Shown here piece after piece: positions 9,510 through 32,014 of a DNA stretch of 44,101 bases. The position numbers were made by a program, and so were the translations under genes. The stretch spans positions 588-44,688 of the forward strand of contig CACZJZ010000025.1 in the NCBI GenBank assembly GCA_902781655.1. Reading direction: 5' to 3'. This DNA is from an uncultured Lachnospiraceae bacterium (GTDB taxonomy: Bacteria; Bacillota; Clostridia; Lachnospirales; Lachnospiraceae). Within the stretch, counting starts at the first letter, position 1. Every line of letters starts with the position of its first letter. The notes beneath the pieces were generated by a model. It had not been told where the DNA came from. It saw nothing but the letters and a program-made list of their open reading frames with translations, and ran no database searches.

Positions 9510-9543
9510 CTGTCCCTGACGAACCGATTGTGTTTTGGGACAA
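9510..9543. repeat. TTGTCCC/GGGACAA element, diverged copy
   Basis: A 34-bp unit that begins CTGTCCCTGACGAA and ends GTTTTGGGACAA, related to the 33-bp elements at 11435, 36600 and 40511. It starts 16 bp after the aldo/keto reductase stop codon. Confidence 0.55.
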
Positions 9544-9546
9544 AAA

Positions 9547-9615
9547 TTGTCCCTGGGAAGATCAGCCTGTTTGGGATATTTTTTGCCCCAAACAGGCTGA
9601 TTTCGTCAGGGACAA
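9547..9615. repeat. Head-to-head pair of TTGTCCC/GGGACAA elements (long palindrome)
   Basis: Two 33-bp units face each other (9547-9579 and 9583-9615). The inner arms pair perfectly over 15 bp (9561-9575 with 9587-9601), with further pairing at the outer TTGTCCCTG/CAGGGACAA ends. A run of six T lies at the centre. It separates the reductase from the RNase gene and could act as a terminator; the layout matches 36600-36668. Confidence 0.7.
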
Positions 9616-9632
9616 TTTTGCGGGTATCAGTC

Positions 9633-10259
9633 ATGAAGTATTTGCGGAGAAAATCAGGCTGCTTTGGTTCTGGGGTACGGAAGCGGCTTTCGGTATTGCT
9701 GCCGTTTCTGCTGCTGATTGTTCTGACGGCCGGCCTGGTTCTGAATGGATGCGGGCAGGCGGGCGCGGCGGCAGGAGGGGAGACTTCCGATCTGGCAGTA
9801 TCTGTCGGGGCGTCACAGCAGTATTCCGGCGGCAGCCTGACGGCCGCGGAGGCGGCTTCTTCCCCGGGCGATGCGGCAAAATCTGATCTTCCGGAGTTGG
9901 CTGACGACGGGCTTTCTGTCACGGAGGATGGGGAGTACACCTCGCGGGATGAGGTGGCAGCCTATCTTCATGCATTCGGTCATCTGCCCTCCAATTACAT
10001 CACGAAGCGGAAGGCTGAGGCGGCCGGCTGGGACCCGAAGGCCGGCAATCTCTGGGAGGTGGCTCCGGGAAAGAGCATCGGCGGGAGCCGCTTCGGCAAC
10101 TACGAGGGAAGCCTTCCCGAGGCGGATGGCAGGAAATATTTTGAATGTGACATCGACTATGATGGCGGGAGCCGGAACGCGAAGCGCATTGTGTATTCCA
10201 GCGATGGCCTGATTTTCTATACGGACGATCATTACCGGACCTTTGAGAGACTCTATTGA
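9633..10259 (+). CDS. Barnase-like ribonuclease, predicted lipoprotein
   Basis: 208-residue secreted guanyl-specific RNase of the barnase (N1/T1) family. A basic N-terminus, a hydrophobic segment (about 21-36) and lipobox VLNGC (C40) predict a membrane-anchored lipoprotein, whereas classical barnase is released. A spacer of about 60 residues leads to the catalytic domain (about 104-208), with HLPSNYITK, GNLWEVAPGKSIGG and YSSDGLIFYTDDHYRTF. The key residues of barnase are kept: K125 (K27), E171 (E73), R181 (R83), R185 (R87) and H200 (H102), so it should be active. A barstar-like gene follows within about 35 bp. The start at 9633 gives a normal signal peptide but has no strong ribosome site. 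Confidence 0.92.
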   Translation: MKYLRRKSGCFGSGVRKRLSVLLPFLLLIVLTAGLVLNGCGQAGAAAGGETSDLAVSVGASQQYSGGSLTAAEAASSPGDAAKSDLPELADDGLSVTEDGEYTSRDEVAAYLHAFGHLPSNYITKRKAEAAGWDPKAGNLWEVAPGKSIGGSRFGNYEGSLPEADGRKYFECDIDYDGGSRNAKRIVYSSDGLIFYTDDHYRTFERLY

Positions 10260-10293
10260 CGAGCTGCGGATTGCCCGGTGTGCGGTGGCAGAG

Positions 10294-10677
10294 ATGGCGG
10301 AAATGATGAATCTGGAGAAAGAAGCGGAAAAATTTGTGTCAGGCGGGAAGACGTTTTCTCCGCGGTGGACGGCGAAATATAATCCGGTGTGCGATCAGAC
10401 GGAAAGAACCAGGCGGCGGATTCATCTGGAATTCGGGCCGCTCGACACCAAAGAGCAGGTGCAGACCTACCTCCAGGAACAGATGGAATTCCCGGCATAT
10501 TACGGGAAAAACCTCGACGCACTCTATGACTGCCTCACGGAGTATCCGGAAGATGTCGCGGTGCGGCTGACAGACATGTGGCAGGAAAGACCGGTCGACG
10601 AGTACATCCGGCGCGTATTCCGCGTATTTTGCGACGCGGCGGAGGAGAACGGGCATCTTGCCGTGACATGCGGGTGA
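10294..10677 (+). CDS. Barstar-like ribonuclease inhibitor
   Basis: Barstar-family protein, expected to bind and block the RNase encoded just upstream and so protect the cytoplasm. The family part is the last 87 residues: IHLEFGPLDTKEQVQTYL, FPAYYGKNLDALYDCLTEY and VFRVFCDAAEENGHL; the YYGKNLDALYDCL block is diagnostic. About 40 residues precede it and match nothing I recognise. The start is uncertain: ATG 10294, 10303 and 10306 are all possible and none has a good ribosome site, so translation may be coupled to the RNase gene. Confidence 0.85.
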   Translation: MAEMMNLEKEAEKFVSGGKTFSPRWTAKYNPVCDQTERTRRRIHLEFGPLDTKEQVQTYLQEQMEFPAYYGKNLDALYDCLTEYPEDVAVRLTDMWQERPVDEYIRRVFRVFCDAAEENGHLAVTCG

Positions 10678-19636: not shown

Positions 19637-19704
19637 TGCGGGTGCCGCATAAGTGCGGGTGCCGCACAAGTGCATGTGCCGCACAAGTGCATGTGCCGCA
19701 CAAG
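19637..19704 (+). repeat. 17-bp tandem repeat, four copies
   Basis: Four adjacent 17-bp units (starts 19637, 19654, 19671, 19688) of the form TGCATGTGCCGCACAAG; the last two are identical and the first two differ at one to three bases. The array ends seven bases before the ribosome site (AGGGAG, 19711-19716) of the helicase-like gene, so copy number could alter its expression. Confidence 0.85.
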
Positions 19705-19723
19705 TGCGGCAGGGAGATTCAAT

Positions 19724-22700
19724 ATGGCCAATTCTGAGGACAGGAAGGATTCCGTAATTATGGATGAGATCGACGAAAAGGAACGGTCAGGGCAGACAGA
19801 GCAATCAGAGCAGACAAAGCAGGCAGAGCAGGGGGATGAATGCGCTGACCAGACCACGGAACAGACGGAGAAGCCTGCCGGGCAGGAAACGCCGGAGGGC
19901 GGTCTCCGCATACAGCTCGATGCCATGCGCGCGATGAGCCTTCCGCTCCTCACGGCGGGATATCCGCTCATCCGTCAGATTGTCCTGGAGAACCAGGGGA
20001 AGGCTGCTGTGACGGGACTAAGACTGCGGGTGGTATCTCCGGAAGGCTTTTTCCAGCCGTGGGAGAGGGATTTGCCTGCAATTCCGGCGGATACGGCACT
20101 GCCGGCGGAGATACCGGCGCTTGTGTTTGACGCGCAGAAAATGGCGGAGTTGACAGAACCGGCAGCCGGATTCATCCGGGCGGAGGTCGTCTCCGGCGGC
20201 GCGGGAGATAAAGGGAACGAAACTATCCGGGCGGAGAGTGCATCCGGCGATGCGAATGTCACAGGGAACGGAGCTGCGCGGGTGGAGAGTGTATCCGGCG
20301 ATACGAATGGCACAGGGACCGGAACTATCCGGTCGAAGTCTGCTTTCGGCGGAACAGGGAATGCAGAAGCAGCAGACGAAAAAGTGCTCTGCGCCGCGGA
20401 GGCGGAGGTGACATATTATCCGTTCCAGTACTGGACTGGCGCGGGAGAATATCCGGAGCTGCTGGCTTCGTTTTTGACGCCGGACCGCCCGGCACTCGCC
20501 GGTATTATTTCCAGGGCAGGAGAGCTGCTTCGGACCTGGACGGGAGACGGGACGATGGACGGGTACCAGAGCGGGGATCAGGACCGCGTCATCCGCCAGG
20601 CCTCCGCGCTGTATGTCGCAGTGCGGGATCATGGAATCCGCTACATTCATTCCGCACCGGGACTCGGAGAAGTGCCGCAGCCGGTTCAGTTTGCCGAAGT
20701 GACACTTCAGGAGCATGCCGGCAGCTGCCTTGATCTTGTGATTTTGTTTGCCTCCCTCCTCGAGGCAATTCACCTTCATCCCTTCATTCTGCAGTCGGAG
20801 GGACATCTGTTCGCCGGCCTGTGGCTGAATGAGACGGCATTCATGCCTTCCGTCACGGTCGGCAGCGAGAAGGCGGCGCGGGAGCTGAACAAGGGCATCG
20901 GTGCGGCTGTGATGTTTGAGACCACGCTGGTGACAAAAGCCGGCACCAATTTTGAGCTGGCGCGCAGAACGGCGGAGATGGAAGCCCGGGATCCGGCGCG
21001 TCCCGTGACGGTTCTGTATGACATCAGCAGCATCCGGGCGGACGGAATCCGGCCACTGCCGCTGCGCTCGGTTTCAGTGGATGAGCAGCCGGAGGAAGAG
21101 GCGGCAGACCGTCAGGCAGCGGAAAGAGATGCCGCGGATGGGCAGCGGGATGAAAAACCGTATGCAGATGACCGCGTTGTCGGGAGCAGAGGTACAGAGA
21201 GAAGAGACGCGGGGGACTGGATTCCGGAGAGCAATGACACAGGAAGCGGCTTGAAAAAGAACGGTGCAGCAGCGAGCCGGGATGCGGAGAACCGGGACAC
21301 AGGGAGCAGCGCCGCAGGGAATAAGGATGAAGACAGCACCGGGAAGAATTCGGAGAGATACTCAGCCGGTGATGATCCTGCGGGAAACTATGATGCAGGG
21401 AACCGGGACCCGGAGGAAACTTCTGCGGGAGAGCATGCTGCTGCGAGGAACGGTGAGAAACGGGAAAAAGGTGGGACGGAGACCGACCTGTCAGCGCCAG
21501 TCTCGGAAACGGCGGTCCCGGAGCGGGCCTACCGCTGGATCCGCCAGCTTCTCGCCCTGCAGGCTGACAACCCGCTGATTGATCAGAAACAGGAAACGAT
21601 CCTGCCGATTCTGATGCCGACAGCGGACGGGCTGCTTGCCCCGCTCGCGGGCGGCAAGGCGTTTGCGCTGTATCCCGGACAGGAGGAATGGCGCACAGGG
21701 CAGGCGGCGGATGCGGATGAAGCCATGTCAGATCCGGGAGCCGGCCGCAGTCAGGTGGTGGCGGAGCTTACGAGCTGCCGCGTGCGCACGTCGCTGGACG
21801 GGGATGAGCTTGCCCGCGCCGCGGCGGAACTGACCGGAGAGCGGGATGCGCAGCTGCGGGAGCACGCGGAGAATCCTCTTTATCTGGTGCTCGGCAGGCT
21901 CCGCTGGTTTGAACCGGACAAGCCCGACAGGCCGCACGAGGCACCGCTGATTCTTGTGCCGGTGGATCTGCAGCGACAGGAGAGCGGCAGGAATGCGGGC
22001 TATGCCCTGCGCCTCCGGAGCCAGAGACTGATGGTCAATGGCGTGCTGCTTACCATGCTGCGGGATACGTTCGGCATGCAGCCGACGGGCGACGACACGT
22101 GGAAGAGCGCGTCAGATTCCGATGCGGTGCGCGCGCTGCTCGACAAAATCCGCACCGCGGTCCTGAATATGAAGCAGTGGAAGGTGACGGACTGCGCATA
22201 TCTGTGCGCACTGCCGTACGCCTCTTATCTCCGTGCCGCGGATCTGGACGCGCATCTTTCCGATCTGCATCGGAACGGCCTGATCGCGGCGCTTGCAGAC
22301 GGCAGGATGCCGTCCGGTGCGGCGGAGGATTTCAGGCGACGCGCCGGACAGGTGCCGGAGGAACGCGTGCTCCTGCCGATGCGCCTTGAAGCCGGGCAGC
22401 GGTACGCGCTCAGAGCGGCCGCCGGCGGGCTGAATTTTGCCGCGCGCGGGACGAAGGAGGAACAGGCGCGGATACTGGCAGCGCTGATCACGGGATCGCT
22501 CGCGGACCGCAGCCGGGTGCTGCTGGTCTCGGAGCGGCAGGAGACGCTGCAGCAGGTGCAGGTGCTGCTGCAGAAGCTGGGACTGGACAGTCTGATCAGA
22601 AGACTGGAACCGGAGGACGGCGACCAGAGCACAGCGAGGGCCGAGGCTGCGGTTTTCGCCGGCGGACTGGAGCCGTATCAGGGATCCGGCGCATATAAAC

Positions 22701-25420
22701 GGAAGAATGAGCAGGCAGCATCCCTTGAGCAGACGCTCATGGAATACACGGCAGCGCTGACGGAGGTCAGATCCTGCGGCCGCTCCGTGCTGCAGATGGT
22801 GGAGAGCGGCGAGTATGAAACGGCGGTCCGGATGCCGGAGCAGGAGCGGATTCTGTTTGACCAGGCGTTCTGCGCGAGCCTGACCGCCGGAGAAGCAGAC
22901 CGGTGCAGCGCACTTGCCGCCTCCCTGACAGAGGCGGCGGAGAAAGCGGGAAACCTGGCGCATCACCCGCTGCGCGCAGTGAAACTGCGCGGAACGGATG
23001 AGACAGAGACGCATGAGATAGGGACGGATGAGCCGGGAAAGCATGAGTCCAGGGCGGATGCGGCAGGAGCGGACGCGGCAGGGACGGATGTGGCTGGCAC
23101 GAATGAATCAGGAGAAGGATGGGCGGCCGCATCCTCGCTGGAGCCTGTCAGGAAGGCGGCGGCAGCCCTGAAGAGGACTGTCGATCCGCTGCAGAGTGCC
23201 GCGGAGGCGCTTTCCGGTGCGGTGGGCAGACCGGCGCCGGCGTCGATGGAGGAGGTCCGGACGCTGGCAGAGCTGGCGGACCTGCTTCTGTTCTGGAAGG
23301 ATCTTCCGCGCACATTCGCCCAGTCGGATCCGATCGAAGGACTGGTGACGGGTGTGCGGGAGCTGTGCGAACGGGTGCGGAAACGCGACGAGCGCCATGC
23401 CGCGCTCTCCGGCAATGCCGACAGCGGCGAGGGCTTCACGGACGGGTTCTTTACGGTGGACGCCGACGCCCTGAAGCTTGCGTGGGAGGAGGCAAACGGG
23501 AAGTTCATTCTGACAAAGACATCAGAGCAGAATCGGATTTTGCGTTCGATTCAGCAGTACTCGAGGGCGAAAATCAGCCGGGAGAGCGTGGAATCCATCC
23601 TTGCGGGGCTGATCGACTATCACCGGGAGGCCGCGGAGGCGGACCGGCTGATGACTGAGTACCGGGACAGACTGACCGGTCTGCTGAAGGGAAAGGAGAC
23701 GGACTGGAAGGCTCTCTCCGAGACGGCGGGCCGCGCGCTTGCGAATGCCCAGACGATGGATGCGGCATTCGGCAAAGAGATGCGCCTGACGTATGCGGCG
23801 GTGCCGGAGGTGACGGAAAAGGCGCAGGTACTGCAGGATGCGTGGAAGGCGGAGCAGGAGGCGCAGCAGGCACTGGAATCACTGCTGCCGCTCGAAAGAG
23901 GGGCGGAAGCACCCGGCCTTGCGGAGCTTGGAACACTCGCCGAAACGCTCGCCGATTCGCCGGAAATGCTGCGTCCATGGGCCGCCTGGCGCGGTGTCCG
24001 CGCAGAGGCGGAGTCGGCCGGCCTCATGCCGGTGATCCGGGCGCTGGAGGCAGGGCGAAAGCCGGAAGAAGTCAGAAAGGCCTACCGGGCCGGCCTTCTC
24101 ACCTCGCTCATCCGGGAGGCCGCGGCGGAGAGCCCTGTGCTGGCGTCCTACGAGCCGTCCTTCTATCAGGAGGAGGTCCGCCAGCTCGGCAAAATCCGGG
24201 ACGACCTGGTCAATCTCTCCAAGGTGGAGCTGTTCGGGAGAATCGCCGGGCAGAGCGGGAAGAGGCCGGAGGAGAGACCGGTGGTGTTCTCCGGGCCGTC
24301 AGCGGCAGTGGCCTGCTTCCCCGGCAGAAAGAATTGTTTTGACCGCGTGCTTCTGGCGGATGCGGATATCATGAGGACGAGGGAGGCGGCAGGGCTTCTG
24401 ACGCGCGGCAGACAGGCGATTCTGACGACGGGAACGGATCCGGAGGATATCGCGGAGGACAGCGTGTACAGGGACGCCCGCCGCGCCGGTGTGACGGAGC
24501 TTATTTTGTCTGATGCAGGCGGAGCGGGTAGCGCCGATGCGGCACTGCCGGACTGGGACAAGGCCGGCGAAGCGTTGGACCGGGTCCGTGAGATCCTGCT
24601 GGACAGAGACAGGACGGAAGCAGCGGAAAAGACAGAGGAAGAGGGAAAGACAGAGGAAGAGGGAAGGACAGAGGAAGAGGGAAGAACAGAGGAAGAAGGA
24701 AGGACAGAGGAAGAGGAAAGGACAGAGACAGAGGAAAAGACAGAGAGAAAGACGGAAGTTGTAGCCGGTGAAACGAATTTTGCAGGCAGGGGGACGCCGG
24801 AGAAACAGAGCCTCGGGGAAAGCGCGTCGGAAGAACATCCTCTTCCCCGCGTTGCGGTGCAGGGCGAGCCCTACCGCGCGGCAAAGCTGCCGGTGCAGCG
24901 GTTTACTACCGCGCAGTTTGTCATGCCGGAGAATGAGCCGATGATTCAGGAGGCCGTGATGGCGGTGCTCGCGGCGGAGGCGCCGATTTCGGAGACGCTT
25001 TTAATTCGGCGGGTGCTCGCTGCGTTCAGTCTGACCCGGATCGTGAGCAAGGAGAGAATCGTGATCAATCATATCCTTGCGGAGCAGCAGGTTCCGTTTA
25101 CGGTGGAGGCGGGGCAGAAGATATACTGGTCCGCCGTGGAGGGACCGGCAGACTACACCGGATTCCGCATCTCCGGCGGCGGGCAGAACCGCCGCGATGT
25201 GGGAGATGTGCCGGAGCGCGAGATGGAGAATGCGGTGCTGGCAGTCCTTCTGTCCGGGCAGGCGGTTGAGGAAGAGGTTCTGCTGAGCCGCGCTGCGGAG
25301 AATCTCGGCTATATGACCATGCGGGACAATGTCCACCGCGCCATTCTGCGCGGCATCGACGCCGCCGCACGGGAGGGATGGATCGAGAGGGACTCGAGAA
25401 ACCGCTGGATGATGCGGTGA
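19724..25420 (+). CDS. Giant DUF4011/DUF3320 helicase-like protein without ATPase motifs
   Basis: 1898 residues; AGGGAG 7 nt upstream of ATG. An acidic Gln/Glu-rich N-terminus is followed by a beta-rich domain (about 75-150), then a transglutaminase-like region with C335 (HAGSCLDLVILFASLLEAI) and H361 (SEGHLFAGLW). Next comes a DUF4011-like block (YRWIRQLLALQADNPLIDQK; EAPLILVPVDLQRQ). Where SF1 helicases of this type have GPPGTGKS, about residue 910 reads RGTKEEQARILAALI, with no GKS/T. At the Walker B position (about 1539) it reads FDRVLLADADIM rather than VxFDEAS. Most of the second helicase half is absent; a Glu/Thr-rich 18-bp repeat precedes a C-terminal DUF3320-like domain (about 1725-1898). 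It probably cannot hydrolyse ATP. Family assignment is from recognised sequence style, not a search. Confidence 0.7.
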   Translation: MANSEDRKDSVIMDEIDEKERSGQTEQSEQTKQAEQGDECADQTTEQTEKPAGQETPEGGLRIQLDAMRAMSLPLLTAGYPLIRQIVLENQGKAAVTGLRLRVVSPEGFFQPWERDLPAIPADTALPAEIPALVFDAQKMAELTEPAAGFIRAEVVSGGAGDKGNETIRAESASGDANVTGNGAARVESVSGDTNGTGTGTIRSKSAFGGTGNAEAADEKVLCAAEAEVTYYPFQYWTGAGEYPELLASFLTPDRPALAGIISRAGELLRTWTGDGTMDGYQSGDQDRVIRQASALYVAVRDHGIRYIHSAPGLGEVPQPVQFAEVTLQEHAGSCLDLVILFASLLEAIHLHPFILQSEGHLFAGLWLNETAFMPSVTVGSEKAARELNKGIGAAVMFETTLVTKAGTNFELARRTAEMEARDPARPVTVLYDISSIRADGIRPLPLRSVSVDEQPEEEAADRQAAERDAADGQRDEKPYADDRVVGSRGTERRDAGDWIPESNDTGSGLKKNGAAASRDAENRDTGSSAAGNKDEDSTGKNSERYSAGDDPAGNYDAGNRDPEETSAGEHAAARNGEKREKGGTETDLSAPVSETAVPERAYRWIRQLLALQADNPLIDQKQETILPILMPTADGLLAPLAGGKAFALYPGQEEWRTGQAADADEAMSDPGAGRSQVVAELTSCRVRTSLDGDELARAAAELTGERDAQLREHAENPLYLVLGRLRWFEPDKPDRPHEAPLILVPVDLQRQESGRNAGYALRLRSQRLMVNGVLLTMLRDTFGMQPTGDDTWKSASDSDAVRALLDKIRTAVLNMKQWKVTDCAYLCALPYASYLRAADLDAHLSDLHRNGLIAALADGRMPSGAAEDFRRRAGQVPEERVLLPMRLEAGQRYALRAAAGGLNFAARGTKEEQARILAALITGSLADRSRVLLVSERQETLQQVQVLLQKLGLDSLIRRLEPEDGDQSTARAEAAVFAGGLEPYQGSGAYKRKNEQAASLEQTLMEYTAALTEVRSCGRSVLQMVESGEYETAVRMPEQERILFDQAFCASLTAGEADRCSALAASLTEAAEKAGNLAHHPLRAVKLRGTDETETHEIGTDEPGKHESRADAAGADAAGTDVAGTNESGEGWAAASSLEPVRKAAAALKRTVDPLQSAAEALSGAVGRPAPASMEEVRTLAELADLLLFWKDLPRTFAQSDPIEGLVTGVRELCERVRKRDERHAALSGNADSGEGFTDGFFTVDADALKLAWEEANGKFILTKTSEQNRILRSIQQYSRAKISRESVESILAGLIDYHREAAEADRLMTEYRDRLTGLLKGKETDWKALSETAGRALANAQTMDAAFGKEMRLTYAAVPEVTEKAQVLQDAWKAEQEAQQALESLLPLERGAEAPGLAELGTLAETLADSPEMLRPWAAWRGVRAEAESAGLMPVIRALEAGRKPEEVRKAYRAGLLTSLIREAAAESPVLASYEPSFYQEEVRQLGKIRDDLVNLSKVELFGRIAGQSGKRPEERPVVFSGPSAAVACFPGRKNCFDRVLLADADIMRTREAAGLLTRGRQAILTTGTDPEDIAEDSVYRDARRAGVTELILSDAGGAGSADAALPDWDKAGEALDRVREILLDRDRTEAAEKTEEEGKTEEEGRTEEEGRTEEEGRTEEEERTETEEKTERKTEVVAGETNFAGRGTPEKQSLGESASEEHPLPRVAVQGEPYRAAKLPVQRFTTAQFVMPENEPMIQEAVMAVLAAEAPISETLLIRRVLAAFSLTRIVSKERIVINHILAEQQVPFTVEAGQKIYWSAVEGPADYTGFRISGGGQNRRDVGDVPEREMENAVLAVLLSGQAVEEEVLLSRAAENLGYMTMRDNVHRAILRGIDAAAREGWIERDSRNRWMMR
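20180..20332 (+). repeat. 51-bp in-frame tandem repeat in the helicase-like gene
   Basis: Three 17-residue units (starts 20180, 20231, 20282) and a partial fourth, of the form AESASGDANVTGNGAAR. They lie between the N-terminal beta domain and the transglutaminase-like region and look like a flexible spacer. Confidence 0.8.
24631..24720 (+). repeat. 18-bp in-frame tandem repeat in the helicase-like gene
   Basis: Five 18-bp units of GACAGAGGAAGAGGGAAG, coding for repeated TEEEGR/K, just before the DUF3320-like domain. Two units are identical, so copy number may vary between strains. Confidence 0.9.
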
Positions 25421-25707: not shown

Positions 25708-26262
25708 ATGAAGAAGAAATTCGGTATCAGAGAAGTGGTCGCAATCGGCATCGGGACGGCACTGTTTGTGGTCCTGACTGAGGTTCAGATTCCGCTGGGA
25801 TTTGTTCCGAACACGTCGCTGCAGCCCAGAATGGCTGTCCTGGCGTTCCTGTCCGCGATCTTCGGACCGATCGTCGGCGCGGTGATCGGCATTCTCGGCC
25901 ATGCGCTGGGAGACGCGCTGTTCTATGGCTCGGTGTGGTGGAGCTGGGTCTTCCCGGAAGCAATCGTCGGCGCAGGAATCGGTGCGTTTGCGAAGAAGTT
26001 TGCTGTCCGTGAGGGCGGTTTTGGCGGGAAGAATATCTTCCTGTTCAACGTCGTGCAGGTTGTCGCCAATGCGGTCGCATGGATTCTCGCAGCTCCGGTG
26101 CTGGATATAGTCGTCTATGCGGAGCCTGCGAATAAGGTATTCGTCCAGGGCGCGTTCGCATTCCTCGGCAATATCATCATCGTCGGCATCCTGGGGTCGC
26201 TGCTGCTTGCGGCATATTCCAGAATCGCCGGCCAGTCCTCCAGCCTGAAGAAGGAAGACTGA
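25708..26262 (+). CDS. ECF transporter S component, UPF0397 family
   Basis: 184-residue membrane protein with five or six hydrophobic segments, matching the UPF0397 family of substrate-binding (S) components of energy-coupling-factor vitamin importers. Typical stretches are GIREVVAIGIGTALFVVL, LAFLSAIFGPIVGAVIGILG and GSVWWSWVFPEAIVGAGIG. GAGGAGG lies 7 nt upstream of the ATG. It is followed by a fused double ATPase and an EcfT protein, so the three genes encode one transporter. Automated annotation often links the family to riboflavin or thiamine precursors, but the substrate cannot be set from sequence here. Confidence 0.88.
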   Translation: MKKKFGIREVVAIGIGTALFVVLTEVQIPLGFVPNTSLQPRMAVLAFLSAIFGPIVGAVIGILGHALGDALFYGSVWWSWVFPEAIVGAGIGAFAKKFAVREGGFGGKNIFLFNVVQVVANAVAWILAAPVLDIVVYAEPANKVFVQGAFAFLGNIIIVGILGSLLLAAYSRIAGQSSSLKKED

Positions 26263-26332: not shown

Positions 26333-26415
26333 CGCTGTTTATAGACAGGTTCCCGGCAGCATGAAAGACTGACAGAGCCTTTGTGTCGGAGCTAGAAGTC
26401 CGGCAAGGAGATCAC

Positions 26416-28221
26416 GTGGACCCCATCATTTCATTCAAGGATTTTTCCTTTCAGTACCGTTCCCAGCAGGAGCCGTCGCTCAGCCATATCAATCTGAACA
26501 TCTATCCCGGCGAGAAGATCCTCATCACCGGACCGTCGGGCTGCGGCAAGTCTACGCTTGCCCACTGCATTAACGCACTCAATCCCTGCTCCTTTTCCGG
26601 CAAAACGAGTGGAAGCCTTCTGGTGGACGGTGTCGTCCCGGAAAAGGAGGGCGTGTTCGGCATGAGCAAGCGGGTCGGCACGGTGCTGCAGGACACCAAC
26701 GGACAGTTTATCGGACTCACGGTGGCGGAGGATCTGGCCTTTGCGCTGGAGAACGACGCCACGCCGCAGGATGAAATGTTCCGCAAGGTGGACCGCGTCG
26801 CGGACATCGTCGACATGAAGCATTTTCTGCGGCATTCTCCGTCCGCCCTGTCCGGCGGGCAGAAGCAGCGCGTCTCCATGGGCGGCGTCCTGGTGGACGA
26901 CGTGAAGATTCTACTGTTCGACGAGCCGCTTGCCAACCTGGACCCGGCGACCGGAAAGAACACCATCGCCCTGATCGACGACATCTGCCGCCGCGAGGAT
27001 GTGACCGTCGTGATCATCGAGCACCGCGTGGAGGATGTTCTGTACCGCGATGTGGATCGGATAGTGGTCGTGGACGACGGCAAAATCGTGGCTGACGACC
27101 ATCCCGACCGGCTGCTGTGCACGGATGTGCTGTCCCGCACCGGCGTCCGGGAGCCGCTTTATGTGACCGCAGTCAAGCATGCGGGCTGCACCATCGATCC
27201 GGCGGATCATCCGCAGCACATCGAAAGCATGAATCTTGCGCCGTATCAGGACAAAATCCGCGCCTGGTTCGCGACCACGACGCTGCCGGTGCGGGAAAAT
27301 CACGCGCCTTATGCGCTGGAGGTGGAAAATCTGTCGTTTGCCTACGACCCGGAGGAACCGGTGCTCCAGAACATCAGCTTCCGGATCCGGAAGGGAGAGA
27401 TGGTGTCCGTGGTCGGCAAGAACGGCGCCGGCAAATCAACCCTGGCCTCTCTGATTCTCGGGTTTTATCAGCCGCAGAGCGGCAAAATCCTTCTGAACGG
27501 GGAGGACATCTCGCCGCTGTCCGTCCGGGAGCGCGGGGAAAGAATCGGTCTGGTAATGCAGTCTCCGGAGCAGATGATCAGCAAACCGATGATCGCGGAG
27601 GAGGTGGGACTCGGGCTCCAGGTCCGCGGCGTTCCCGCGGATGAGATTGAGCGGAGAGTGAATGATACCCTCCGGATCTGCGGCCTGTATCCGATGAGGC
27701 ACTGGCCGGTTTCGGCACTGAGCTTCGGCCAGAAGAAGCGCGTCTCGATCGCCTCCATTCTCGTGCTCAATCCGGAGATCATCATTCTGGATGAACCCAC
27801 GGCGGGACAGGATTTCCGGCATTACACCGAAATCATGGAATTCCTCCGGAAACTGAACCGCGAACTCGGGCTGACCATCATCATGATCACGCACGACATG
27901 CATCTGATGCTGGAGTACACGGACCGGGCGATCGTACTGGCCGACGGTCAGCTCCTGACCGACGACACGCCGGCACGGGTTTTGACAAACGAGTCCGTGT
28001 CGGACCGGGCGTATCTGAAGAAGACCTCGCTGTATGATCTGGCGGTGAAGTGCGGCTTCGACAGACCGGATGAGTTTGTGGACCGGTTCATCGCGTTCGA
28101 GCGGGAACAGAGGGATGCGGGGATCTTGCACGGGAATGGCGCAGAGATCGGCGCTTTCAACGGAGCTGAAGCGCGGCGGGAAAAAGACACTGCAGAAGAA
28201 ACGGCAGGGGGTATAGCATGA
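26416..28221 (+). CDS. ECF transporter fused double ATPase (EcfA-EcfA' type)
   Basis: 601-residue cytoplasmic protein with two ABC ATPase domains in one chain, powering the ECF transporter. Domain 1 (about 1-240): Walker A GPSGCGKST (39-47), signature LSGGQKQRVSMGG, Walker B ILLFDEPLANLD. Domain 2 (about 295-530): Walker A GKNGAGKST, degenerate signature LSFGQKKRVSIAS, Walker B IIILDEPTAGQD. Both sites therefore look competent. GTG was chosen as start because AAGGAG lies 5 nt upstream; an earlier in-frame GTG at 26383 has no such site. Its stop overlaps the next start as ATGA, implying coupled translation with EcfT. Confidence 0.93.
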   Translation: MDPIISFKDFSFQYRSQQEPSLSHINLNIYPGEKILITGPSGCGKSTLAHCINALNPCSFSGKTSGSLLVDGVVPEKEGVFGMSKRVGTVLQDTNGQFIGLTVAEDLAFALENDATPQDEMFRKVDRVADIVDMKHFLRHSPSALSGGQKQRVSMGGVLVDDVKILLFDEPLANLDPATGKNTIALIDDICRREDVTVVIIEHRVEDVLYRDVDRIVVVDDGKIVADDHPDRLLCTDVLSRTGVREPLYVTAVKHAGCTIDPADHPQHIESMNLAPYQDKIRAWFATTTLPVRENHAPYALEVENLSFAYDPEEPVLQNISFRIRKGEMVSVVGKNGAGKSTLASLILGFYQPQSGKILLNGEDISPLSVRERGERIGLVMQSPEQMISKPMIAEEVGLGLQVRGVPADEIERRVNDTLRICGLYPMRHWPVSALSFGQKKRVSIASILVLNPEIIILDEPTAGQDFRHYTEIMEFLRKLNRELGLTIIMITHDMHLMLEYTDRAIVLADGQLLTDDTPARVLTNESVSDRAYLKKTSLYDLAVKCGFDRPDEFVDRFIAFEREQRDAGILHGNGAEIGAFNGAEARREKDTAEETAGGIA

Positions 28222-29045
28222 ACAGACTGCTGAGTTATGAGGAAAAGGACACATGGCTGCATCATCTGTCGGGCATCACCAAGCTGATCTTTTTCATTGT
28301 GTGGTGCTTCACGTCGGCGCTCACCTATGACACGCGGGTGCTCCTCGTGATGATTGCTATCAGCGCCGCGCTCTATGTGATGTCGAAGACGGAGTGGAGA
28401 CAGGTAAGTACCGTGTTCAAGTTTGTTATGTTCTTCATGGTGGTCAACCTGGTGGCGATCTTCCTCTTTTCGCCCTACCAGGGGACGGAGATTTACGGCA
28501 CGAAGACGGTGCTCGCACCGCTGTTTCCGGGACATGCCATCACCCGGGAGGAGCTGTTCTACCTGTTCAATGTGCTGATCAAGTATTTTACGGTCGTGCC
28601 GTCTGTCTTCATCTTCATGGTGACCACGGACCCGAGTGAATTCGCCGCTTCCATGAATCACATCGGTATCCCGTACACAGGAGCCTATTCCGTGTCGCTC
28701 GCGCTCCGCTACATCCCGGATGTGCAGGCGGATTATCACCGCATCCGGAACGCGCAGGAGGCGCGGGGCATTGAGATGAGCTCCAAGGCAAAACTCACGG
28801 ACCGCATCCGGCGCACGTCGAGCATCATCTTTCCGCTGCTGTTCTCGGCCATGGAGCACATCGACGTGGTAAGCAATGCCATGGAGCTGCGCGGATTCGG
28901 CAAGAAGAAAAGGCGCACATGGTACGCCTACCGGAAGATGAAGCGGGCGGACGTGGCTGTTCTGATTCTGACAGCGGTGTTCAGCGCCGCGGCGCTGGTG
29001 ATCACCTTTGCGGACGGAAACCGTTTCTGGAATCCGTGGGTATGA
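28218..29045 (+). CDS. ECF transporter transmembrane protein EcfT
   Basis: 275-residue integral membrane protein of the CbiQ/EcfT family that couples the ATPases to the S component. Hydrophobic segments lie near 20-35, 40-55, 70-90, 115-135 and 240-260. The two Ala/Glu-Arg-Gly coupling motifs are present: NAQEARGIEM (about 178) and AMELRGFGKK (about 222). The gene overlaps the ATPase gene by four bases and ends just before a strong terminator, closing the transporter operon. Confidence 0.92.
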   Translation: MNRLLSYEEKDTWLHHLSGITKLIFFIVWCFTSALTYDTRVLLVMIAISAALYVMSKTEWRQVSTVFKFVMFFMVVNLVAIFLFSPYQGTEIYGTKTVLAPLFPGHAITREELFYLFNVLIKYFTVVPSVFIFMVTTDPSEFAASMNHIGIPYTGAYSVSLALRYIPDVQADYHRIRNAQEARGIEMSSKAKLTDRIRRTSSIIFPLLFSAMEHIDVVSNAMELRGFGKKKRRTWYAYRKMKRADVAVLILTAVFSAAALVITFADGNRFWNPWV

Positions 29046-29185: not shown

Positions 29186-30335
29186 TCAGAATACTTCAAT
29201 CTCCGAGCAGCAGGTGATGTTCTTCCTGTTGCTGCCGCGGTAGGAGGAGCCGAGGATGATCCAGAAGCGGTCCACGACGGCATCGACGCGGATGTACTGG
29301 GATCCGGTAGCTCTTGTTCGCGGCGTCGAGCCGGAGGGTGACGCGCTTCATGCGGTTATAAGCCTGGAAGGTGTCCTCATCCTTCTGATTGCCGTTGTAG
29401 ATCACAATGTAGTGGACATACTGCTTTTTCGTGATGTTGACGTAGATGCGCTTGTCCGAGCCATTGTCGGATTCGCCCTCCGCCCAGGCGGTTGTCGGAT
29501 CGCCGTCCATCAGGTGAAGATCCGTAAAGGTGCTGTGCGGATCAGCGTCCTCGTGATCCACCCTTTTTCCGTCATCTCCGAGGATGGAACTCGCGTTAAA
29601 ATCGGAGACGGGGACCGGTGGGTAAGCGCCGATATCCTCCATCTTTTCTGCGGCCGTGAGGCGCGGATGATGGATGCCGAGCGCCGAAGCCAGCGGTCCG
29701 AGGCCGGTGGAGAAGGAGAAAATAATGAAAATCACGGCGGCGAGGACGGCGATGCGGAAGAGATTCCGCACCCGGTCGAGAAAGCGCCGCAGGTGTTCCG
29801 CGCGCCGCCAGAAGGTATTCATCGGCTGAACGAGGTCGGATTCCATCCGGGAGAGCCAGCTGTCAAAGGACGATAGCCGTTCCTGTGCCGGCAGTCCGGA
29901 CTCGAGTGCCTGATACTGCGCTGAGAGCTCTTTGAATTTTGCCGCGAGACCGAGGGTCCGCACATAGCCGACCGTGCCCCGATCCGCCGCGGCGCCCGGG
30001 ATCTCGCTGATGATTTTGACGGCGCGGTAGAAGAGAATGAGCCAGTCGAGCTCACAGATGAGCCGCAGGCGTTCGTCGAGACCGGCGAAGGCGGGCTCCA
30101 CCTCCTTGCGGAAATAACCGGTGATTTCCTGAGCACTCACCGTTGTGCGCTCGATGTTCTTCTGCTCGAGTGAGATATTGAAGGAGAAGGGGAGGTCCCA
30201 GAGGCCAGCGACGGCCTTCTTCTGCGCCTTCTCAATGGCCGCGCGGGCTGCCTCGGCGGCGCTTGCATCCCGGATCGGTTCGGCGCCGGAGGTGCGGAAC
30301 CAGGTCTGGGCAATCAGATCGTCCAACTGATGCAT
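29186..30335 (-). CDS. Single-pass protein with C-terminal discoidin-type domain, late frameshift
   Basis: Membrane protein of about 383 residues. The first 190 are helical and cytoplasmic, then a membrane helix (LFRIAVLAAVIFIIFSF, about 192-208), then an outside domain resembling the F5/8-discoidin or NADase-type glycan-binding fold (LHLMDGDPTTAWAEGESDNG, IYVNITKKQYVHYIVIYNGN). After residue about 345 the given frame becomes Arg/Pro-rich nonsense ending at 29196. Another frame instead reads YIRVDAVVDRFWIILGSSYR and ends CSEIEVF at 29186, the expected final strands. The switch falls at the GGG of 29299-29301; removing one G restores the frame. The start has CAGGAG 8 nt upstream. Function unknown; surface sugar binding is plausible. 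Confidence 0.7.
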
Positions 30336-30718: not shown

Positions 30719-32014
30719 TCATACGCAGAACGCTGCATAGAGCGGGACAGACAGCAGTCCGTCTGCCAGGCCAAAATTCATCTCAGAGAAGCGGATGGCA
30801 TAAGGCGGCTTATATTTCTCCCGGTAGTTTCTGAGGCTGGTTGATCTGCGATGTCTTCCTGCTTTGATTTCAACAGGGATGATATCGCTGCCGTCATCAA
30901 TGAGCATGTCGATCTCCATACTTTCGGAAGGCTTGAAATAATAAAGTTCCGGGTGACGGATCTGAATCTGCTGATACACATAATTTTCGATGACGCCACC
31001 TTTGTAAATGTTGTGGGAGTCGGGCAGCAGATCCCTGTATCGCAGGCCGCACAGATTCGTAAGCAATCCCACGTCGGAAAGATAGATTTTGAATGAATCT
31101 GGGTTATCATAGCCACGGAGGGGAGGAACCGGGAGTTCCACGTTATCGACCTTGATAATCAGGCCTGACGCGTTCAGCCAGTCGAGCGCTCCCCAGAAGT
31201 CGCGCTTTCCGACTCCCTGTCGGATTTCATTATACTTAAATTTTGGATTATCTTTCGCAAGCTGTCTTGGAACGGAACGGTAGGTCTCCGTGATTTTTAC
31301 ACTCTCTTGCGGAGAAGTCACATATTTTGTCATGTCAGCCAGATAGGCGAGCTGAAGGCTGCTGAGGATTCGGCCGTCAACAGCGAAGACATCCCGATCC
31401 TGCTCGAGATAGCTGCAGATTACTTCCGGCATACCGCCTGTGATCAGGTAGTCATGATAAAGTCGCAGAGCTTTATTATGCACGCCGTCCGGGAGCGGCG
31501 TATGATTTGTAAAGCTGGTCTGTATACCGTCAATCAGAATATCCTCACCGCAGGCAAGCAGAAACTCTTCAAAATCCATGGGATAAAGGTTCTCAATCTG
31601 TACCTTTCCGACGGGAAATGAAGATTGAAAGCGATGGATTTTGACGCCCAGAAGACTTCCGGCACAGATGATTCTGAAATGGCGTTGATCTTCGCAGAAG
31701 TATTTCAGCGCGGTGATAGCCCGCTCCGAGGACTGGATTTCATCCATCACGAGCGGCGTGTCGGGCGCGATTTTTCTGCCAAGCATTTGTTCAAGTCCGC
31801 GAAGGATGGTGTCCGGGTCGAGATTGCCATCGAACAGAGAGCGGATGTCAGCCTGCTCTTCCAGATTGAGGTAAATATAATCCTGGTAGTGATTCTCGCA
31901 AAAGTTCCGGATGGTCCATGTTTTGCCTGTCTGTCGGGCACCGATGACCATCATCGGCTTTCGCGCGCCTGTCTGATCCCATTTTTCCAAGGTGTTTTGA
32001 AATTTCCGGAACAT
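30719..32014 (-). CDS. AAA_14/DUF4143 family ATPase, second copy
   Basis: 431-residue ATPase of the same group as 5297-6529 but only distantly similar. Walker A is GARQTGKT (about 25-32), Walker B PLVMDEIQ (about 88-95), and a sensor-like CAGSLLG follows. The DUF4143 C-terminal domain includes SFKIYLSDVGLLTNL and GGVIENYVYQQI, ending with a nuclease-like pattern (MEIDMLIDD ... IIPVEIKAG). AAAGGAAAA precedes the ATG. The gene is AT-richer than its neighbours and is preceded by an AT-rich repeat array, as if the segment arrived separately. Substrate and role are unknown. Confidence 0.88.
   Translation of the reverse strand: MFRKFQNTLEKWDQTGARKPMMVIGARQTGKTWTIRNFCENHYQDYIYLNLEEQADIRSLFDGNLDPDTILRGLEQMLGRKIAPDTPLVMDEIQSSERAITALKYFCEDQRHFRIICAGSLLGVKIHRFQSSFPVGKVQIENLYPMDFEEFLLACGEDILIDGIQTSFTNHTPLPDGVHNKALRLYHDYLITGGMPEVICSYLEQDRDVFAVDGRILSSLQLAYLADMTKYVTSPQESVKITETYRSVPRQLAKDNPKFKYNEIRQGVGKRDFWGALDWLNASGLIIKVDNVELPVPPLRGYDNPDSFKIYLSDVGLLTNLCGLRYRDLLPDSHNIYKGGVIENYVYQQIQIRHPELYYFKPSESMEIDMLIDDGSDIIPVEIKAGRHRRSTSLRNYREKYKPPYAIRFSEMNFGLADGLLSVPLYAAFCV

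Follow-up and report, generated by a model that had tools for sequence, protein, structure and literature searches.

Relation to ProA and other described systems

Among described systems, the closest to the gene reported here is the anti-phage protein ProA (NCBIfam family NF058533; PDC-S37 in PADLOC). Intact ProA proteins carry immunoglobulin (Ig)-like and transglutaminase (TG)-like domains at the N terminus, followed by DUF4011, an AAA_11/AAA_12 superfamily 1 (SF1) helicase, an MTES_1575 restriction endonuclease (REase), and DUF3320. Our literature searches found no mechanism for a ProA-type defense protein and no match for PDC-S37, and no account of ProA as an anti-phage protein was recognized among the matches listed. 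The gene is located in a 44,101-nucleotide (nt) stretch of contig CACZJZ010000025.1 from an uncultured Lachnospiraceae bacterium, referred to here as the window (coordinates are positions in the window, on the + strand unless marked (-)). Its 1898-residue product scored 610.7 bits (E = 7e-183) against NF058533, below the curated cut-off of 1500 bits; the ProA-type proteins G057, G085, and G251 scored 1886, 1835, and 1220 bits, respectively. The window protein is homologous to ProA in every part that has not been deleted, and the domain order is identical, with the Ig-like and TG-like N terminus, DUF4011, and DUF3320 present; however, it differs from ProA in that the P-loop (Walker A, GPPGTGKS), Walker B (DEAS), helicase domain 2A, and the MTES_1575 REase are not found. 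Its anti-phage label comes from the family name only. We conclude, with a probability of about 0.6, that a ProA-type anti-phage protein has here shed its motor and nuclease and been kept as a pseudo-helicase.

The DUF4011 anti-phage protein Hhe (NF042953) is distantly related to the window protein across DUF4011 and the helicase region; however, the match (67 bits) is far below the cut-off of 2000. A further described architecture likewise unites TG, helicase, and winged-helix modules in a single protein, from which the window protein differs in its lack of a HEPN match and of an REase and in its lost motor motifs. Utp25 is reportedly termed a pseudohelicase as well but differs in being, as is said, a eukaryotic ribosome assembly factor. 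Excerpts of one study (PMC4824097) describe inactivated helicase domains in RecC and AddB that retain SF1 topology after motif loss and are proposed to recognize Chi. The window protein likewise appears to keep SF1 topology despite its lost motifs, and AddB/RecC is the nearest precedent for a retained dead SF1 fold. A search of solved structures returned six distant helicase sequences with ProA and no match for the TG alignment, and an IMG/VR search with the window protein as the query returned no relatives.

Loss of the motor and nuclease

An earlier reading made from the sequence only had placed the protein in the framework of DUF4011/DUF3320 SF1 helicases. Pfam bore this out, with matches to DUF4011 (residues 608 to 779; E = 3e-24) and DUF3320 (residues 1731 to 1773; E = 4e-9), and NF058533 supplied the parent family. 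No helicase or nuclease domain was found in the Pfam search of the protein at E values up to 1, nor was a HEPN match; a LAGLIDADG match (E = 0.05) was below the threshold. The frame is open throughout its 1898 codons and is preceded by a good ribosome site, as that reading had also stated (Table 1).

In the alignment to ProA, the Walker A stretch GPPGTGKSQTI is replaced by ARGTK-EEQARIL (RGTKEEQ starts at residue 908) and the Walker B stretch IFDEASQ by LLADADI (FDRVLLADADIM; ADADIM at residue 1545), while motifs IV to VI, domain 2A, and the REase give way to a repeat-rich acidic linker. Judged from this alignment, the protein has no P-loop, a broken Walker B, and no second helicase half, much as first proposed, and has lost the nuclease as well. 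A Walker A motif elsewhere in the protein was ruled out: neither [AG]xxxxGK[ST] nor GxxGxGK occurs anywhere in it. The motifs of an active SF1 helicase (I, II, and IV to VI) are not present. It is therefore very improbable that the protein is still an NTPase that uses a noncanonical site; domain 1A apparently keeps its fold in a structural model, but the sole GK[ST] lies in the acidic repeat at residue 1641, no DE box of the searched form was found in the protein, and motifs IV to VI are absent. A second DUF4011 protein that might supply a motor was also sought in the same genome (2.76 Mb, 99.5% complete), where the window protein proved to be the single DUF4011 protein.

We compared 78 distinct DUF4011 proteins from the window and the fetched loci (237 sequences, a subset of all matches), with the copy in G006, which has the same DUF4011 core, merged with the window protein. 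The P-loop GxxGxGK[ST] was kept in 75; one protein was too short, and the two without it were the window protein and G251, which lies on a different branch and has Lys in place of Ser. Since 72 of the 75 P-loop-bearing proteins have exactly GPPGTGKS, the loss in the window protein is more than chance. A low-confidence model nevertheless supports a RecA-like domain 1A of the SF1B (Upf1-like) type, so that the Upf1-type fold may have been kept.

Constraint in the P-loop-less lineage

DUF4011 was searched for in 62 genomes of the genus (10 with a match) and 397 of the family (26 with a match), and the ProA profile was run against 392 genomes of the order (at least 9 above the cut-off) and 391 of the class (at least 10); viral contigs were searched as well. 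G006, of the same genus, encodes a protein that is nearly identical to the window protein and likewise lacks the P-loop. The two genes differ by 44 substitutions in 5510 aligned nt (residues about 1145 to 1198, which fall in the gap between the two G006 contigs, were left out), of which 28 are synonymous and 16 nonsynonymous; the neutral synonymous expectation is 28.6% under an assumed transition weight of 3, and the ratio of nonsynonymous to synonymous rates (dN/dS) is about 0.23 (P = 1.5e-6). Without a cluster of single-nucleotide polymorphisms at about residues 970 to 1070, 22 of 29 are synonymous (dN/dS, 0.13; P = 1.9e-7). Synonymous changes make up 7 of 8 in the TG domain (P = 0.001) and 15 of 24 in residues 961 to 1144, at the start of the helical insert (P = 0.0006), and the second G006 contig adds two in-frame indels (18 and 9 nt). 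Codon-position GC content follows a coding pattern along the whole gene, similar to that of three neighboring genes, with GC at third positions somewhat lower across the first 600 codons.

Plain decay is unlikely, because 28 of the 44 substitutions are synonymous, and the comparison shows that the P-loop-less lineage keeps this gene under purifying selection. The proposal of a maintained, inactive helicase scaffold therefore stands as far as maintenance is concerned; the protein is not of a new kind, as it belongs to the ProA family. An assembly chimera or a misassembled gene, which the tandem repeats within the gene might suggest, is hardly credible, given the near-identical copy in a separate assembly (L025 and L026).

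A second relative from the genus, G028, is 28 to 42% identical to the window protein by segment. It retains Walker A as GAPGTGKT, but Walker B reads DDAD, motifs III to VI have degenerated, the REase is matched weakly, below the cut-off (E = 2e-4), and Asn replaces the TG Cys. The P-loop loss anticipated across orthologues is thus seen in G006 and not in G028, where only the later motifs have degenerated. G085, also of this genus, is an intact ProA. The window protein and G028 are joined in the tree (SH-aLRT, 99), and because motifs II to VI are degenerate in both, parsimony places the beginning of motor loss before their split; the frames would therefore have been open long since.

Relative to five intact pairs (G251/G306 not among them), the identity profile of the window/G028 pair is inverted: the motor regions and DUF4011 drop, TG holds, and the insert and DUF3320 climb. 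Identity is 19% in the P-loop region (78 to 90% in intact pairs), 32% in motifs II/III (62 to 77%), 46% in TG (38 to 45%), 32% in the insert (20 to 23%), and 48% in DUF3320 (21 to 29%). These sequence comparisons show constraint in the window/G028 clade shifting from the ATPase motifs toward the insert and DUF3320, while TG is maintained.

Several observations weigh against a retained pseudo-helicase. The branches of the window protein and G028 are long (2.45 and 2.28, respectively), and their grouping drew a warning from the tree program. The G006 gene is split over two contigs and, relative to the window, carries 20 and 13 additional nt in the repeat linker (residues 165 to 251), which shift and then restore the frame and introduce TGA stops; the G028 gene is split over two frames near L019:2605-2784. 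These breaks could be either assembly errors or early or real damage, which are indistinguishable here. Of the 44 substitutions, 24 fall in residues 961 to 1144, a hint of recombination, and residues 601 to 960 (DUF4011 to the P-loop), residues 1199 to 1560, and the C terminus hold 0, 2, and 2 substitutions, respectively, so that the measure of selection covers other parts of the gene; the comparison is also noisy, since the neighboring ABC gene has a dN/dS of 0.51 against G006. In the window/G028 pair, identity is lower in DUF4011 (28%, versus 41 to 45% in intact pairs), unremarkable in Ig (17%, versus 12 to 27%), and in TG barely exceeds that of intact pairs, and part of the rise in the insert and DUF3320 arises because these two proteins are closer kin than the intact pairs, although the telling feature is that the motor falls alongside this rise. 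The helicase-region model had a pTM of only 0.40 and was built from an alignment that contained intact helicases, and neither it nor the TG model had a Foldseek match at E ≤ 0.001, so the structure prediction suggested at the outset yielded a RecA-like 1A fold at low confidence and no structural match at that level. Finally, the TG Cys is not conserved in the window/G028 clade, and so neither is catalysis.

A ProA gene disabled recently and now merely decaying, with no stop codon acquired so far, would account for the stepwise motif loss, the frame breaks in both assemblies, the fast branch, and the presence of DUF4011 in just 10 of the 62 genus genomes. We consider this improbable, however, in view of the dN/dS between two copies that both lack the P-loop, the in-frame indels, the intact codon pattern, the raised identity of DUF3320 and the insert, and a motor loss that predates the window/G028 split.

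The TG-like domain and helicase-free relatives

The earlier assignment of C335 and H361 to a TG-like region was correct in position, and E399 is a third residue invariant across 11 aligned N termini; the Cys, His, and acidic side chain expected of a TG-like thiol enzyme are thus all present, within a TG fold, in the window protein. The TG model is PNGase/LapG-like, and its top Foldseek match was transglutaminase factor XIII (E = 0.006). By sequence, then, the protein retains the Ig/TG-like domain with all three residues, DUF4011, the helical insert, and the C-terminal DUF3320 region. Because the TG Cys is lost in G028, the function common to the clade does not have to involve catalysis.

Elsewhere in the family, G251 has DDAC and a Cys-to-Ala change in TG besides its altered Walker A and lacks DUF3320 (L090), and G686 (L159) has lost the TG Cys and His but retains both Walker motifs and the REase; both are placed elsewhere in the tree than window/G028. 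A loose "degenerate" label, applied to four rows, corresponds to three changes on the tree, with motor loss proper occurring twice (window/G028 and G251). From this tree, six TG-less rows were dropped by length (G063, G211, G464, G199, G1037, and G1071), and G006a and L168, the latter apparently a duplicate of G1044, were omitted. The TG Cys is lost alongside intact motor motifs in G649 (L095), G959, G999, G1081, and G1115. Losses of TG or ATPase residues recur in varied combinations in further ProA-type proteins (L090, L159, L095, L133 to L135, and L138).

Two proteins, G1014 (882 residues) and G1113 (909 residues), match ProA at about positions 3 to 355 and 1692 to 1903 only. Pfam found DUF4428 at their N-terminal and DUF3320 at their C-terminal ends and no DUF4011, AAA, or REase domain, and both keep the TG Cys and His. 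This form occurs in at least 2 of the 391 class genomes; against 80 genomes of its family, the 909-residue protein matched 6, at full length just in G1014 and G1113, and in G1164 its two ends lie widely separated within a 2435-residue open reading frame (ORF). TG and DUF3320 are therefore able to exist without a motor, which supports the view of a retained scaffold. By eye, L154 to L157 have a ProA-like Ig-TG pair in an ORF that lacks a long helicase part, and some begin with a zinc-ribbon-like motif and then a hydrophobic stretch.

One possibility, which we hold tentatively, is that the protein is still an anti-phage effector without a motor, like G1014 and G1113, in which the C-terminal winged helices and pseudo-1A domain sense DNA or nucleoprotein and the thiol enzyme has a protein of the cell or the phage as its target. 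The retention of C335, H361, and E399, the PNGase/LapG-like model, the Cys and His of the helicase-free relatives, the synonymous changes in TG, and a candidate defense gene downstream are consistent with this; however, the TG Cys is lost in G028 and in the five motor-intact ProA proteins named above, the closest neighbors are a transporter operon and signaling genes, and the chromosomal place is identical in three carriers.

Possible mode of action

We regard a retained pseudo-helicase scaffold that links the TG-like domain to the C-terminal winged helices as most likely, and the protein probably has a different, motor-free job. A passage in PMC3710099 describes DUF3320 as a winged helix-turn-helix (wHTH) domain. 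In the proposed mechanism, the protein would act as an ATP-independent binding scaffold in which nucleic acid or nucleoprotein is bound by the wHTH, perhaps together with the pseudo-1A domain, and the helical insert relays the bound state. Output would come from the TG-like domain, which would act as a cysteine peptidase or transglutaminase in the window species and as a binding module in orthologues without the Cys. The least certain point is whether the protein still responds to phage DNA or has turned into a housekeeping regulator.

The protein offers a natural experiment on a ProA-type defense protein and a bacterial example of a retained pseudo-helicase. Evolution has taken away the motor and nuclease independently of the TG and wHTH parts, which suggests that the latter have a function of their own; we predict that they alone may bind DNA and act. 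More speculatively, a defense helicase-nuclease may have become a thiol enzyme or scaffold that responds to DNA without ATP, in which the dead motor binds DNA and connects, as a relay, a winged-helix reader with a TG-like effector; it would then be a bacterial-immunity counterpart of RecC/AddB, with the helicase-free ProA relatives reaching the same core by another route.

Genomic neighborhood

The nearest genes upstream encode GGDEF-EAL and HD proteins, and an energy-coupling factor (ECF) operon lies downstream; the order ProA-like gene, ECF S component, ABC ATPase, and CbiQ is common to the window, G006, and G028. The S component was matched in 22 of the 62 genus genomes (21 strongly), the window's own included, and a ProA-like gene lay beside it in 1 of 19 further loci (G028; 1.5-kb flanks, window and G006 not counted). 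A housekeeping regulator would fit the fixed position of the gene, which three genomes place next to a riboflavin ECF operon.

Table 1. Features of the window and of the helicase-free relatives
Feature	Position	Strand	Basis or detail
Putative ProA-derived pseudo-helicase gene, 1898 aa (amino acids), ATG at 19724	19724..25420	+	ORF, Pfam, NCBIfam
Shine-Dalgarno-like AGGGAG, 7 bases 5' of ATG	19711..19716	+	sequence reading
Ig-like domain carrying low-complexity repeat insertion	19925..20413	+	
TG-like domain	20414..21049	+	C335 20726-20728, H361 20804-20806, E399 20918-20920
DUF4011 domain	21536..22027	+	
Walker A position, RGTKEEQARILAALI vs GPPGTGKSQTI in ProA	22445..22489	+	alignment
Helical insert within domain 1A, kept	22610..24256	+	
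Walker B position, FDRVLLADADIM vs FDLVIFDEASQ or similar in ProA	24338..24373	+	alignment
Acidic low-complexity linker at site of ProA domain 2A and MTES_1575 REase	24488..24940	+	
C-terminal region with DUF3320	24941..25414	+	Pfam match 24914-25042
ECF riboflavin transporter S component, downstream in window, G006, G028	25708..26262	+	
ECF-type ABC ATPase, neighbor in window, G006, G028	26383..28221	+	
CbiQ-type T component, neighbor in window, G006, G028	28218..29045	+	
AAA_14/DUF4143 ATPase, PDC-S01 candidate defense family, whole-length match, E = 1e-142	30722-32014	-	PADLOC
Helicase-free ProA relatives: DUF4428, Ig, TG with Cys and His, DUF3320	L152:2584-5229; L153:2519-5245		

PADLOC models run on 10 neighboring ORFs gave one strong candidate, PDC-S01, about 5 kb downstream, and a reading of the locus as having no defense neighborhood was dropped on that account; a defense setting is possible. 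Weak PADLOC matches of the HD and ABC neighbors to Cas3 and other ATPase models were taken as family-level similarity. A 17-bp tandem repeat (4.3 copies; 19637-19709) ends immediately 5' of the gene's ribosome site. About 9 kb upstream, a barnase-type ribonuclease, at the C-terminal end of a 243-residue ORF, is directly followed by a barstar gene (9528-10677), forming a toxin-immunity pair. The product of 29199-30335 (-) has a Pfam match to NADase_transloc, an F5/8 type C domain for NADase translocation (E = 1e-8).
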